Origin: Actinomycetes bacterium
Lineage (GTDB): Bacteria > Actinomycetota > Acidimicrobiia > Acidimicrobiales > Acidimicrobiaceae
Assembly (NCBI GenBank): GCA_021844725.1
Contig: JAKBSX010000229.1
Location: forward strand, 1 to 5,724
Reading direction: 5' to 3'
DNA: 5,724 bases
The notes below the pieces were generated by a model. It was given only the letters and a program-made list of their open reading frames with translations. It did no database searches and was not told the DNA's origin. Positions 1 to 5,724 of the stretch are shown one piece after another (position 1 is the stretch's first letter; each line of letters begins with the position of its first letter). The position numbers were made by a program, and so were the translations under genes.

Positions 1-27
1 CGGATTCAATAATTTCTGATTCTTGAG
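1..27 (+). other. Probable 3' end of an intron (upstream exon outside window)
   Basis: All three plus frames contain a stop within the first 25 bases (taa 10-12, tga 17-19, tga 24-26), while the following frame is open to 560 without an early ATG. The sequence tttctgattcttgag has a branch-like CTGAT 8 nt before an AG at 26-27, similar in spacing to the other introns here. The acceptor is GAG, which is weaker than the TAG/CAG of the other introns. Alternative acceptors are AG at 52-53, or CAG at 120-122 and 123-125. The exact boundary is therefore uncertain; the presence of an upstream exon is better supported than its position. Confidence 0.45.
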
Positions 28-3000
28 CATCTCTTGGTTGCGTTTCTCTTGAGTCTGTTTATACTTACCCTTCACATCGACTATGATCCTGCCGCTTATG
101 AGTACTTTCAAAAGTTCTCCAGCAGTCGTATTCAAGCATTCATCAACCAAGTGAAATTACCACTCTCGTTAGAATTGCCTTCATCCTCATCCAATCAAAG
201 AGCTGCAGTTGAAATAGGATGGAAGTTGTATTTCCAATTGTTAACTGCCATCGAAGAGACCATCAAGATCGATCAAGAGAACTCATCCCGTCATCATTGG
301 CATCCTGCAACTCATATGTATGCGATGGAAAGAAATCTTAACGAAGAAGTTGTTTATCGTCCAAGACCCATAGAGTCTTCAACTGATGCTAATGTATTAC
401 CTGACTCATATACCGATGATGATGAGGAACTGAGTGAAGAGGAAGAGAGTGGGGACTCGGGGGGTCAGAGGGATTCCAATCGTCCTAGGAGGTATTCTCA
501 AGAGGAGTACTTCAAATCTTCGTCAGAAAATGAGTCCTCTGAATCTTATGAGGCCTACAGGTAGTACCCCTGCCTTAATTTGAAGTAATTGTTTCAACTT
601 TATTCTAACGTAGACCCCAATGGGACCCCGAGAGTGTGTCGCCGATCTTCTTCGGGTATACCCTGGTTACCCTGAACCAGCGATCGAGCGTGGTGGGTTC
701 AGAAGAGCAGAGTGAGCTTGACGCAGAGATCCGAGCCTTGGAGAGGGCCAAGCGGATGAAAGTGGATGCTCGAGAGGAGCTGGAGAAACGCATGGCGAAC
801 TTTACTTTGACACGGGAGAAACGAATAGCCGATGTGAAGGGTAAGTATGAACAGGCTCAAGAGAAACGCAACCAAGAGATGCTCAAGAATCAGAAATTAT
901 TGAATCCGACGGCGTTTAAGCTTTACCTTGCTGAGTGGACTGTTGAGGAGAATGAAGCGGAGCAAGCTTATCAACTTGAGCTTACTCGAATGGATGATGC
1001 GCACCAAACTCAGCTAAATGCTGATAAGGAGGCATTGCGAACGATCTTGAATGAGCAGGTTCTGTTTGAAGACAGTGTGAGCTTCGAAAGGCCTACTGCT
1101 GCACTCATTGAGGAAATATCGAGAGCCGAGATCACTAGATGGTCAGAAGAATTGCAGAAACGATGCTCAGCGCTTGAGGTAATTTACAAGGATTTTTAGC
1201 GATCATTTCTCTTGAATTTGTCTAGGTGGCACGAGACGAGTATACGAGTTTAAAAAACAGCCTAGTCGGCAGAAGAGGTGGAAGAGGAACTGAGACTGCT
1301 TCCATCGACGAACGCTCAATGGCTAACGTGTCCCTCACTCGTCTGAATGAGAGTAAAAAGGCTGTAGAGGAAGCATTACTCTGTCTCGGTGATGCTGAAG
1401 TGTTGCTTCGTCGGGCTACTCGGCTTATTTCTCATGAAAGGGAGCTGCTGCCACTTTTCAGGGTCATGGCGGGCACTGATGATTATCCGAAATCGTGCCC
1501 TTATAATCTTATTGTAGCAGGAATGATACTGCTTATGAACGGCACATTTGATCAGCGTGCTAACTCTATATTTGAGGTTTTTCAACCTACCCGACCCGGG
1601 CTCTACGACAAGACATATCTCACTGACTGTGTCTCTTTAATCATCGAGGTATTAAATAAATTACACCTATTTCCTTACAAGCTAGCCTCTGATGAGCTGG
1701 AAAGTCTCGTTCTAAGATATTTTGCAGATACACGAGTATCTGTCGCGCTTACTCAGTATGAGGCGAAGCATTTTCTTAGCTCTCTAATCAGCCGAAGTAA
1801 ATATCACTCAGACTTGTTTGGTCTTGATCGGCATTTACTCTTTAGCACCTATCAAAGACAGAAGATGAATGTACAATTATATTATTTTGACACGTACTTC
1901 TGCTGATAACTTATCCTAGCCTATTACTCTTCTCCAATACGGCGTTATTGACCAACTATCTTGCAAACACATGATTCATTTCCAGACAACGAGATATTTC
2001 CCCCAATTACAATCCAGCAATAGGACCAGAATTCATGAGCTTGCAATGAATTGTGGTATGGATGATCCATTGCGGGTTGATTATCGTCAAATGATTAAGA
2101 AGGGACCATCTAAACCCCAGAGTTATCTGCAAGTTGAACCGCTTACCCATGGCCATTTGAATAATTTACAATACATTGAAATGGTGGATCGTGAGACTGC
2201 AGCAACAAAAATTCAGAGTTTATTTCGTTCTTATAAAGAGCGACGATTTGCTGAAATGGCAGCAAAAATTCGAGCGTTCGAGGAGGCGAAGGCGTTAGCT
2301 ATACAAGAGGTCAAAACTAATCTTATTGCAGAATTCCGCACCAGAGAAGCAAGCTCTGGGATGGGGCGCATGAAGTGGGATGCTCAAGTGCGTCTGCAAC
2401 AAGGAAAACTTCGCGCGCTCGGAGAAGTGGTGAGTCGAGCCGACACAGTCATGATTATGATGGATGAGGCGCTTCGTCGTGCAACTGATGAAATTGAGCA
2501 GCGATTCCGTGAAATACAAAGCAAGGAAGAATTTGGCTACTTTGATATTGAAGTCCAGGGCCCAGTGGTTGACGATCCGAGCAAGAAACGCGATATCCTT
2601 GAGCTTTTCGGTCTGTCGCACTGGTTCGATAACCTTGAAATTGAGGATCAGATGCGGGATATACACACTCCTCGACCTGACGACTCAAGTGATGATGGTA
2701 GTGATGATGATGAAGTGCATAATGAACAGTCGGCTTTGATAACCCTTTCTTCCGAAGAAATCATTGAAACTCTTGAAGGAAATTACACATACGATCCTAA
2801 AAAGAAAGGAGAGAATAAGCTTCAGCGCGAATTTCGCCACGCCATGGCATTTCCTTCACCAGAGATTCAGCATCTTGTTGCTCGACTTCGAGCAATCGAT
2901 TCCTGTTTTACTGTGTACAAAGTAATGAAGTTCTTATCGGAAACTCCATCAAAACGTTTACTTATGCTCATGGTCGAGAACTTAAATTTAGAGCGACTTG

Positions 3001-4787
3001 CATTTGAATTACGGAATCACTTCAAATTAGCTCGTAATCATACGCATATCGCCACAGTATTGAAGAGCATATGCCACTCTGATTTAGAATTCGGAATACT
3101 TCCCGAGGAAATTAAGAGGGTACAGTATGCTTGTGAAGGAACACTATCGCGTATGGTTCAATTTAATATTCGCAATATGGTGGAGGATTACAACAAAAGA
3201 GTAGAAAGTCGCTTGCAATCAATCACCACTCTTCTTGAAGATAATGAAATTATACAGGAGGAAATTTCGCATAATTCTTTATTAGAGAAAAGATTTGCTA
3301 AAGAATATTCTCATTTGCAACAAGAGTTCATGAAATTGCGCCGAGAATATCATACCTTATCGTTGTCCATTCAAGAAATAGAAAGAAGAAGAATAAGCTT
3401 GGAAAACCTTAACGTTTTCCGTGCAGGGCTTGACATTGTTGTTGAGGTTCAGAATGATGATCGCAAAAATTGGATGGGACGTATGACTTACGCGCTTAGT
3501 ATCAACGAAGATTCGGAACGGGAGAAGGAAGTAAAATACACCGAGCTAGTTGGAGTTTGTAGAGAATTCATAGATACTGCCTCACATGATGCGATGACAA
3601 TCATAAGGGAATATTACCTCCCAAACATGCAGAAGACAATCCCTATTTACGAAGAAAGTGATGTTGAGGGACGAAGCTCAGTGTGCGGGAGGGGCATTTA
3701 TGGCAAAAAATCTTTCTTTGAAGCCAATAACATTTCCTATAGAGTTTTCTGTGATCATGATGGAATTTTTAACGGTTCCGATGAGTGTTCTGCAAAGGCT
3801 GCAAATAACGAGCGCTTGTTTTCTTTACAATATGCCGCCTGTCACGTAAAATCTCTGCATGTTCCACTTGTAGTTACTATTGATTATCATGGCTTTCGTG
3901 TTCTAGCACAATCAAGGGCGCCGACAACTAAGGTTTCTTTCAATGAAAAGGGAGAAGTAAATGTATCGTCCGGAGACCTCGTCCACGGAGTTGTTAACAG
4001 AGGAGATATGTTTTTGAACAGGGATAAATTACTGCAATCGTTGCTATCGCAAACTGCGCGTATTTTTAATCTTTCTGATCATAACTGTAAAGGCTTTAAG
4101 GATATCTCTGGGTCGAATACCAACTGCTCCGCGGAAATCAAAATTTACAGGGGGGTGGATGGTGATTTCTACATGCAAGATTTCTGGGTTGCGTTTCCTC
4201 CAGAGGTACCTGAATGCACACCTCATTTTCTTCGAAGTTCTCGAGATCAGAGCATATATTGGCGTCGGCTACGTCCAGAGTTTTGCAGGAATTTCCATTC
4301 ACCGTTGAGTCCCGATGCATGCTCCACCATAGTCTACCATACTTTCGATCAGAGGAGTCAATATGAAGCTGTTCATACCGCGAACATGCATATGATCAAT
4401 CATGTTATTCCAGAGTTCGTCGATTATTTAGTGCAGAGGAACTACACCCTTCAGCTTTCCGAGGGATTGGGCTTAAATGTATCGAATGAGCTACACGTAA
4501 GGGGAGTGAGTGTGCGACATATCGGGTTAATTCGATCTAAATTGTGGCATGAACTCCCGGGAAAGGTATCACTCTATAATAATGAACGGTATATACGGTG
4601 TTCTCATGACGTTCGCAATGATGTTCGACATGGCGACATTGTACGGCTAGGTGAACTCTCATTCAATGTAATTGAAACGAATAAGAGGAAAATTGAGCAT
4701 GATCGCATCCCAATCGACCGTAAGTACAAGGGTCATCCCTATCAAAACGTATCTGCGAAATCTGGTACAACTGCAGGAAGTCATTAA
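28..4787 (+). CDS. Large IQ-motif / CLU-domain protein, four exons in window, 5' partial
   Basis: Exons are 28-560, 614-1178, 1226-1870 and 1920-4787. Spliced they give 1536 residues (numbered from nt 28) with no internal stop, ending at TAA 4785-4787. Residues 1-129 are unrecognised and 130-143 are acidic. Residues 206-380 are charged coiled coil, 473-566 a degenerate EF-hand-like pair, and 675-691 an IQ motif (IQSLFRSYKERR). Residues 835-846 are D/S-rich, 895-993 helical-repeat-like, 1001-1083 coiled coil, and about 1173-1454 a CLU domain. A tail with GDIVRLGELSFNV lies at 1486-1498. CLU-family proteins (CLUH/Clu1/TIF31) act at mitochondria and on mRNAs, but this IQ-containing architecture differs and its function is unknown; calmodulin binding is inferred from the IQ motif. 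No in-frame ATG lies before nt 316 although the frame is open from 13, so the true start is upstream. The usual CLU-central region is missing after the CLU domain, so the 3' end may be artificial (see findings). Confidence 0.85.
415..456 (+). repeat. Acidic low-complexity tract (D/E/S) in first exon
   Basis: Residues 130-143 read DDDEELSEEEESGD and are followed by a Ser/Glu/Arg-rich segment up to the exon end at 560. It is compositionally biased and probably disordered, linking the unrecognised N-terminal part to the coiled coil of the next exon. Confidence 0.65.
561..613 (+). other. Spliceosomal intron, 53 nt (first complete intron of CLU gene)
   Basis: The donor is CAG|GTAGTA at 561 and the acceptor is ACGTAG ending at 613, preceded by TTCAAC and TTCTAAC branch-like motifs and a T-rich run. 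The first exon ends after two bases of a codon (AG), and the next exon starts with A 614, giving AGA (Arg) and joining two frames exactly. The apparent stop of the first open frame (TAG 562-564) lies inside the intron. Removing it also explains why the next open frame (607 onwards) has no in-frame ATG. Confidence 0.85.
1179..1225 (+). other. Spliceosomal intron, 47 nt (second)
   Basis: The donor is GAG|GTAATT at 1179 and the acceptor is TTTGTCTAG ending at 1225, after a T-rich tract with a TTGAAT branch-like element. It is a phase 0 intron. It carries in-frame TAG 1197-1199, which would end the upstream exon if unspliced. Splicing joins ...CSALE to VARDEY... and continues the same charged helix. 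Confidence 0.9.
1544..1825 (+). other. Degenerate EF-hand-like pair in the CLU gene
   Basis: Residues 473-566 have the helix pattern of an EF-hand pair. A first unit reads FDQRANSIFEVF then a loop-like PTRPGLYDKTYL and a hydrophobic helix. A second unit ends in LTQYEAKHFLSSLISRSKYH and then DLFG, which resembles the exiting helix of calcineurin-B/NCS-type EF-hands. The acidic calcium ligands are mostly absent from the first loop, so calcium binding is doubtful. The family call is from pattern only. Confidence 0.45.
1871..1919 (+). other. Spliceosomal intron, 49 nt (third)
   Basis: The donor is AAT|GTACAA at 1871 and the acceptor is TATCCTAG ending at 1919. The canonical branch-like element TGCTGATAAC sits about 10 nt before the acceptor. 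It is phase 0: STYQRQKMN joins PITLLQYGVIDQL, which is in frame with the long final exon. Without splicing the frame would hit TGA at 1904-1906. Confidence 0.92.
2199..2249 (+). other. IQ motif (calmodulin-binding type)
   Basis: Residues 675-691 read AATKIQSLFRSYKERRF. They fit IQxxxRGxxxR with Ser in place of Gly, and the usual preceding AATxIQ context is present. The motif lies in a long basic/acidic helix (about 692-785 continues EMAAKIRAFEEAK...). IQ motifs bind calmodulin or related EF-hand light chains, in many cases without calcium. Only one copy is seen. Confidence 0.85.
2679..2714 (+). repeat. GAT/AGT-rich low-complexity tract encoding an acidic D/S linker
   Basis: A run of GAT, GAC and AGT codons encodes DDSSDDGSDDDE (residues 835-846). 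It separates the IQ/helical part from the helical-repeat-like and CLU parts. It is a triplet-based low-complexity tract and probably a flexible linker; length variation between strains would be expected. Confidence 0.7.
3693..4538 (+). other. CLU domain (clustered mitochondria family)
   Basis: Residues 1173-1454 carry several landmarks of the CLU domain in the right order. LVVTIDYHGFRVLAQS (1233-1246 region) matches the strand-rich core with a D-Y-x-G-x-R-V-x-A-Q-S pattern. YRGVDGDFYMQDF then AFPPEVP (1324-1344) matches the family's G-x-D-G-R-x-Y-x-x-D ... F-P-P segment. YWRRLRPEFCRNFHSPLSPDA (1362-1381) matches the R-P-E-L ... P-L-x-x-D-A segment, and LHVRGVSVRHIGLI (1439-1452) the closing R-G-I-N-x-R-Y-L-G segment. 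Several independent motifs agree, so the call is firm. Length is near the usual 250-280 residues, making this domain complete. Confidence 0.88.
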
Positions 4788-5724
4788 ATATAATCGCATA
4801 CATATACTGTATTTACCTTCGTGAATTCCAAAAATGTAATGAAATACCCAGAAGTTTTCGCGATTCACCACTAGCCCAAATCTTCCGCATAAGTAAGCTA
4901 CTCGTTTGATTTCTTTAGAAGTAGAACATTTGGCGAAGAGTTCAACGGTAAAATGCGATGTTTGGTCTTGGGGTATGAGTTTCTCTTGAAATCGCACAGT
5001 AATAAAGGATTTGGAATCAGGTTTGAATCCGACAGACTTGCTGAAGGAGTCTCCAACAATAGGGCCGGGAAGATATAACTCACAACCTTTGGAGTAAGCA
5101 CCTTGTGCGGATTCTCCTAAGCTTCCTACATTCTCAGCAACTCGTGACCCTTTTCTCTCATAAAGCTGCAGGAACAGCAAAGGGCTATCAGTAAGAATTT
5201 GTTCCCTGTAAGTATTTTCCGATGCTGTATTTGCTTTCATTGCAGCGAGGGTAGCCTCTGCAGAAGTTAGTGCGGACATGTTATGACGAATGACCGGGAG
5301 AATTTCTAATATGTCAGAGACACAAAACTGGAACCCAAGGGGCCTTTGATGAAACTCCGCCAGTGTGAGGAGCGACACTCGGACATTAAGCATTGACATG
5401 AGCCTATGAATCGCGTATGGAATGCAAAACTTCAGACTTGAAAATAACGAAAATTGTTCATGCACTGACACCGCAGCATGGCCAAATCTTTCTCGAATCC
5501 CGTGATAAACAAGCTCTTGTAGTACACGTTCAGTATCATCGCTGGCTCCGGAAATTATATTTAAGTATTCGCAAACAATTGTTCGCAGAAAAATTACCGA
5601 AATTCCCTTAGTTCTTTTCGCATATTGGCGCAGGCTCCCACGAATAAGATGCTTGATGGTTCGAGTGATCATCTCTGTTAAAAACAATATGCGTAACGAT
5701 TCACAATTTGTTTCGTTTGCAGTC
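4742..5724 (-). CDS. CLU-central/eIF3-p135-like plus LamG/ConA-like fragment, partial
   Basis: The coding frame is open from the window edge (first full codon 5723-5721, ACT) down to 4817. A 46-nt intron then leads to a short last exon, 4770-4742, ending in TGA. The 311 residues in the window start TANETNCESLRILFLTEM. Residues 13-115 resemble the CLU-central (eIF3 p135/TIF31) helical region: TEMITRTIKHLIRGSLR, then YLNIISG, GIRERFG and RLMSMLNVRV. Residues 187-295 resemble the start of a LamG/ConA-like jellyroll: RVAENVGSLG, a Y-x-x-G-x-x-L-x-x-PGPIVGD segment, FITV, FTVELFAKC and CGRFGLVVN. The second half of that fold is missing, since the frame ends ...HEVVPDFADTF. There is no start codon in the window. 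The piece overlaps the 3' end of the convergent CLU gene by 46 nt. It may be the displaced C-terminal half of that gene. Confidence 0.7.
4770..4775 (+). repeat. Inverted hexamer ACTGCA, left copy
   Basis: ACTGCA is read as Thr-Ala near the end of the plus-strand CLU gene (...SGT-TA-GSH stop). Its inverted partner TGCAGT is at 5718-5723, and is also read in frame as Thr-Ala on the minus strand. A 6-bp match alone would occur by chance. Its importance comes from position and frame at both ends of the converging segment. Confidence 0.5.
4771..4816 (-). other. Probable spliceosomal intron, 46 nt (minus strand)
   Basis: Read on the minus strand, GAAG|GTAAAT at 4816 is a strong donor and CTTCCTGCAG ending at 4771 a good acceptor, with an AATGAC branch-like element about 10 nt upstream. 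Size and layout match the three plus-strand introns. If spliced within this window, the frame continues for only nine residues (VVPDFADTF) before TGA at 4744-4742. If unspliced, the frame runs on to 4659 with low-complexity hydrophobic sequence that looks non-coding. The acceptor TGCAG overlaps one copy of the inverted hexamer described separately. Confidence 0.65.
5718..5723 (-). repeat. Inverted hexamer, right copy (ACTGCA on minus strand)
   Basis: This partner of 4770-4775 lies one base from the right edge of the window. On the minus strand it encodes the Thr-Ala that opens the visible CLU-central fragment. Together the two copies bound 4776-5717, the candidate inverted segment. Confidence 0.5.

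Follow-up and report, generated by a model that had tools for sequence, protein, structure and literature searches.

The closest described counterparts of the arrangement reported here are the inverted chimeras that form during multiple displacement amplification (MDA). In one published account, 406 of 475 mapped MDA chimeras were inverted, 337 of the inverted ones spanned less than 10 kb, and priming homologies reached up to 21 nt; most of the chimeras were argued to form through annealing to displaced strands, not through self-primed hairpins (PMC1855051). In a second MDA data set, the overlap distribution had its maximum at 6 nt, and distances varied between 0 and more than 5,000 nt (PMC4595205). 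The window analyzed here (the whole stretch of 5,724 nt) resembles these chimeras in that inverted neighbors lie less than 10 kb apart and share a few nucleotides of complementarity at the joint, but it is one assembled sequence, whereas those chimeras were seen in reads mapped to a reference (PMC1855051, PMC4595205). At the protein level, a partial counterpart is Trypanosoma brucei FLAM3, which is likewise a very large protein with a CLU domain; FLAM3 carries 567-aa repeats after that domain (PMC4541047). No description of the architecture discussed below came up in literature searches that combined CLU with laminin G or with leucine-rich repeat and flagella. We consider it very likely that the window derives from a single intact gene of the CLU family (with CLU, CLU-central, and Laminin-G-like domains) and is a chimera of it produced by amplification fold-back, most likely MDA.

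The initial annotation had interpreted a plus-strand and an antisense open reading frame (ORF) as two halves of one CLU-family gene separated by an inversion. The features of the window are listed below, where X stands for the piece on the plus strand that ends at 4775, and R for the piece on the minus strand, read from 5717 to 4815.

1 to 84, minus strand: fold-back copy, the reverse complement of 825-908 (exon 2), replacing the native N-terminal codons.
73 to 84, no strand assigned: left chimeric junction, where the window and the fold-back source concur at 11 of 12 bases.
85 to 561, plus strand: exon 1, corresponding to the relative P0019 from its residue 16 onward, with 96.9% identity over 159 residues.
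609 to 1187, plus strand: putative exon 2, with approximate ends placed by GT..AG and the open frame.
1226 to 1870, plus strand: exon 3, with approximate ends; collinear with P0005, P0007, P0008, and P0010-P0013 (among 9 of 21 proteins listed).
1920 to 4775, plus strand: first part of exon 4 (X), with a sub-cut-off IQ-like motif, the CLU domain, and the initial part of CLU-central.
1920 to 4787, plus strand: plus ORF, containing CLU and ending at the TAA at 4785-4787.
4659 to 5723, minus strand: minus ORF, open to the right edge of the window.
4770 to 4775, plus strand: ACTGCA, part of the inverted homology at junction 4775/4776.
4776 to 4816, minus strand: putative intron start of the intact gene, GTAAATACAG...TGACTTCC, which contains the window's plus-strand TAA at 4785-4787.
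4817 to 5717, minus strand: second part of exon 4 (R), reversed, with the remainder of CLU-central and the start of a Laminin-G/ConA-like domain.
5718 to 5724, no strand assigned: TGCAGT plus C, the partner of ACTGCA at the window edge; too short to reveal what comes next.

The gene product is large, belongs to the CLU family, and includes a Laminin-G-like domain; the relatives recovered in this analysis lie in public contigs and in one MAG contig. It is apparently eukaryotic, since it seems to contain introns, themselves putative. Exon 1 lacks its 5' end, which was lost at the left junction, and the C-terminal half of exon 2 matches P0007, P0008, P0011, P0012, and P0013 in the expected order (among 9 of 21 proteins listed). 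The plus ORF belongs to the CLU family by its match to PF13236 (E 3.4e-32, 112.5 bits against a Pfam cut-off of 24). Taken alone, the minus ORF matches CLU-central (PF12807) below threshold (E 0.015, 15.8 bits against a cut-off of 22). Across 4817-5717, only the minus frame among the six has zero stops and a positive exon-4 codon-usage score.

The two hexamers on which the proposed inversion had been based, ACTGCA at 4770-4775 and TGCAGT at 5718-5723, are indeed present, and fusing 4775 to the complement of 5717 gives a frame that runs on without a stop. The rejoined protein was used to search about 5.8 billion proteins, with scoring on residues 500-1252, and 18 proteins were returned. Because the query was the rejoined protein, this search is biased toward proteins with both pieces, and the range of lengths it admitted (0.55 to 1.75 times 1252) left out short separate genes; the recovery of P0017 shows that a protein with R only was still findable. 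One of the 18, P0001 (1235 aa; 6 clustered sequences from 3 contigs, the longest 13,714 bases), was identical to the rejoined query over residues 500-1252 (100% identity and coverage). Compared with the two pieces of the window, P0001 is identical at 1210 of 1211 residues, with one substitution and zero gap at the join; identity is 99.89% for X with the rest of exon 4 and 100% for R (4815-5717 against residues 911-1211, 301 residues). The earlier proposal that the two ORFs are parts of one gene, split at the named place and frame, is thus borne out by the gapless join in P0001. One detail of it was wrong. The minus piece had been said to begin exactly with CLU-central at the edge, but in P0001 this domain follows CLU at residues 810-947 and straddles the join at 910/911, and therefore starts about 100 residues inside the plus piece. 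Its score rises accordingly, from E 0.015 in the minus piece to E 2.3e-6 in P0001 (28.2 bits against 22). The source entry of P0001 is a '-', a mark otherwise given to proteins of the window itself, but P0001 is not readable from the window in its present arrangement; the evidence for the intact gene is at the protein level. On the combined evidence of P0001, its relatives, the CLU-central match, and codon usage, X and R are parts of one gene and the arrangement in the window is the aberrant one.

The remaining relatives agree with this order. When the pieces were searched separately, X matched 17 of the 18 proteins and R matched all 18; the 17 with both pieces, P0001 included, all have X before R. 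The implied gap between X and R is zero in 15 of these 17 (P0001-P0015) and +2 in P0016, and the nominal value of -78 in P0018 comes from a divergent protein in which the X alignment ends early. P0017 has R but no X and begins inside R. P0001-P0016 hold the two pieces in the same order, at 42-100% identity to X and 37-100% to R, and unlike the window they are unbroken between the pieces; by precomputed domains, most have a Laminin-G match and some have leucine-rich repeats further on.

At the right-hand side, the window includes a single novel adjacency, 4775/4776, whereas a closed inversion would have two, both joined to native flanks. The inversion reading is supported as a reconstruction of the gene, in place and frame, but not as a genuine two-breakpoint event. 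On the minus strand, R leads into GTAAATACAG...TGACTTCCTGCAG, a plausible short intron, and the TAA that ends the plus ORF falls within this would-be intron of the intact gene, as had been predicted. P0001, which is an unspliced gene call, reads across the putative intron as GKYSICMRLYLMTSCS. It has the same residues as the window through this stretch (GKYSICMRLYLMTSCSC) and then diverges, with NTCSSMRF in P0001 and TRFRRYVL in the window beyond the joint. The two agree through C-S-C past R before they part, so that the inverted homology could extend to as many as 10 nt instead of 6; judging from these residues, it probably exceeds the hexamer. In 400,000 trials with random breakpoint pairs 200-1100 nt apart in this sequence, 0.17% of the pairs shared 6 nt or more and 0.015% shared 8 nt or more. 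Past R, the window continues for 7 bases, TGCAGTC, of which six match the inverted repeat of the first segment and the last differs; position 5724 is C, and a closed inversion and a fold-back both predict T (TGCAGTT).

The tail of P0001, re-read after the putative TGCAG acceptor, weakly suggests a continuation of the Laminin-G domain. Equally good fits were obtained with 228 of 5000 shuffles and with 366 of 3495 random sequences, in a test that used 9 of the 12 Laminin-G proteins found (P0010, P0014, and P0015 were left out). Between 4700 and 5724, a scan for bacterial promoters gave 0 promoters, and a terminator scan gave 1 terminator-like site, which was not above shuffles.

The left edge of the window carries another inverted copy. 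Positions 1-84 are identical to the reverse complement of 825-908 at 81 of 84 bases, with mismatches at 54, 60, and 80, and native sequence picks up again within about 73-80. P0019, which matches exon 1 at 158 of 163 residues (5 substitutions), has a normal N-terminus, MGHQLSHLESDHIDYDP, in place of which the window reads antisense exon 2 as far as L-HIDYDP, and P0019, P0020, and P0021 have similar MG..LS starts where the window has the inverted copy. Base 80 (A) was taken as native because P0019 has D there, which places the switch at about 73-79; the native DNA to the left of base 80 would encode the P0019 residues H-I-D-Y. This edge is a probable second fold-back chimera with short homology. 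Given the differences at 54 and 60, besides the one at the junction, the left copy either does not derive cleanly from this molecule or has variants or errors.

We propose that a growing strand X-R ended near TGCAGTTGT during DNA amplification, most likely MDA, and may have folded back onto ACAACTGCA of its own or a sister strand and recopied X. The 3' end, TGCAGTTG(T), would have annealed to (A)CAACTGCA at the end of X, and extension would yield X-R-rc(X), which from the other strand is X-rc(R)-rc(X): X, then reversed R. The native X/R joint would then lie at the right edge, with 4775/4776 as the sole artificial junction, and such a product would need only the one artificial junction that is seen. 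A second event of the same kind would have made the left edge.

Both edges resemble the published MDA chimeras in orientation, distance, and homology. R lies on the minus strand in the window and after X in 17 of the 18 proteins, and the segment at the left edge is likewise inverted. Distances are 942 nt on the right (4776-5717) and 740 nt on the left, both below 10 kb. Complementarity falls within 2-21 nt, with 6 nt seen and up to 10 suggested by residues on the right, and 11 of 12 bases on the left, where the native side is deduced from residues. Loops of 740 and 942 nt with homologies of about 6-12 nt are therefore consistent with those chimeras, and in the window annealing to a displaced strand and a self-primed hairpin are not distinguishable. 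The single frame of X and R in P0001 and its relatives, the left inverted repeat, and the short inverted homologies are direct observations in favor of a fold-back; the unpredicted C at 5724 and the differences at 54 and 60 count against it.

Two inverted junctions within 5.7 kb of an undecayed gene are easy to invoke through amplification and hard to invoke as two rearrangements in the cell. An inversion allele, in which R flipped in the cell between short inverted repeats and broke the gene in one strain or haplotype, is very unlikely on this ground. The junction does have the inverted homology that a homology-mediated inversion could have, and the 5 substitutions in 163 residues relative to P0019 show that strain variation exists, but the allele would require that this gene copy had also undergone an independent inverted event at its left edge, and the second junction of the inversion is not in the window. 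Against P0001, the coding sequence has 1 substitution in 1211 residues and no decay, as expected if the break is not present in the cell. The lack of any gene call of a minus ORF so arranged also speaks against the allele, weakly, since the window's own was likewise not returned. A real and possibly reversible 0.94-kb inversion that turns the gene off in part of a population is less probable still, indeed barely plausible. A true inversion would be an uncommon gene-breaking allele, which the evidence does not favor.

A pure assembly error, in which the assembler reversed R although no chimeric molecule existed, would account for a window edge no more than one base from the inverted hexamer, as can happen where contigs break at ambiguous joints. 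Usual assembly k-mers, however, are far longer than the inverted repeat of 6-10 nt, and the 84-nt inverted copy at the left edge has base differences of its own; we regard this explanation as highly improbable, close to the inversion allele in standing though a little below it. A pair of distinct genes in convergent orientation, both of them fragments or paralogues of the CLU family, could be read from the window alone, where each strand has an open frame, but P0001 holds both pieces in one frame at 99.89% and 100% identity and CLU-central is divided across both; P0001 thus already contradicts this reading, to which we give almost no credence. Three options were offered initially (rearrangement, polymorphic allele, or assembly inversion); a chimera of amplification or assembly is much likelier than a rearranged allele, on the basis of the second fold-back at the left edge. 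The flip is very probably an artefact of DNA amplification or of assembly, and most likely a fold-back chimera as opposed to a genuine genomic feature, with amplification of the sample presumed. Because a near-identical protein and related ones are intact, nothing here points to new biology. When antisense overlaps or truncated domains turn up in contigs from uncultured organisms, fold-back chimeras can be their origin, and such cases are quickly resolved by rejoining the frames and seeking an intact relative.

Other searches were also performed. Viral contigs gave 0 exact matches to a 41-base pattern across 4775/4776, and no confirmed relative from either piece or from a 14-sequence alignment (A1). 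When the minus ORF was searched by itself, the 2497 candidates included no gene call with E 1e-3 or lower; this says little, because P0001 was beyond the length limits of that search. Among solved structures, none matched the plus ORF. The minus ORF had two weak matches to ZorA (E 0.011 and 0.029), which were judged to be chance, since alignments of this stretch to CLU relatives have far better E-values.

The sole confirmed relative in the genome collection searched was a gene in a separate genome record (L001, 748-6705) with CLU, CLU-central-like, Laminin-G, and LRR regions, in a public MAG labelled Spirochaeta sp. MED672. A single alignment at 26% identity pairs it with residues 30-1210 of P0001, and one 1985-aa ORF in it has CLU, CLU-central (20.9 bits, just below the cut-off of 22), and Laminin-G in order. 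Used by itself as query, R did not attain E 1e-3 for this locus, and alignments with P0001, P0008, P0010, and P0014 as longer queries run through the R stretch. Its contig may be a contaminant in that MAG; the two ORFs next to the gene had no Pfam match. P0005-P0014 are large proteins of 1310-2119 aa with CLU, CLU-central, and Laminin-G, and P0010 and P0014 additionally have leucine-rich repeats. The exon-1 relatives P0019, P0020, and P0021 have N-termini of MGHQLS or MGQHLS, starts that we take to resemble an N-myristoylation signal.
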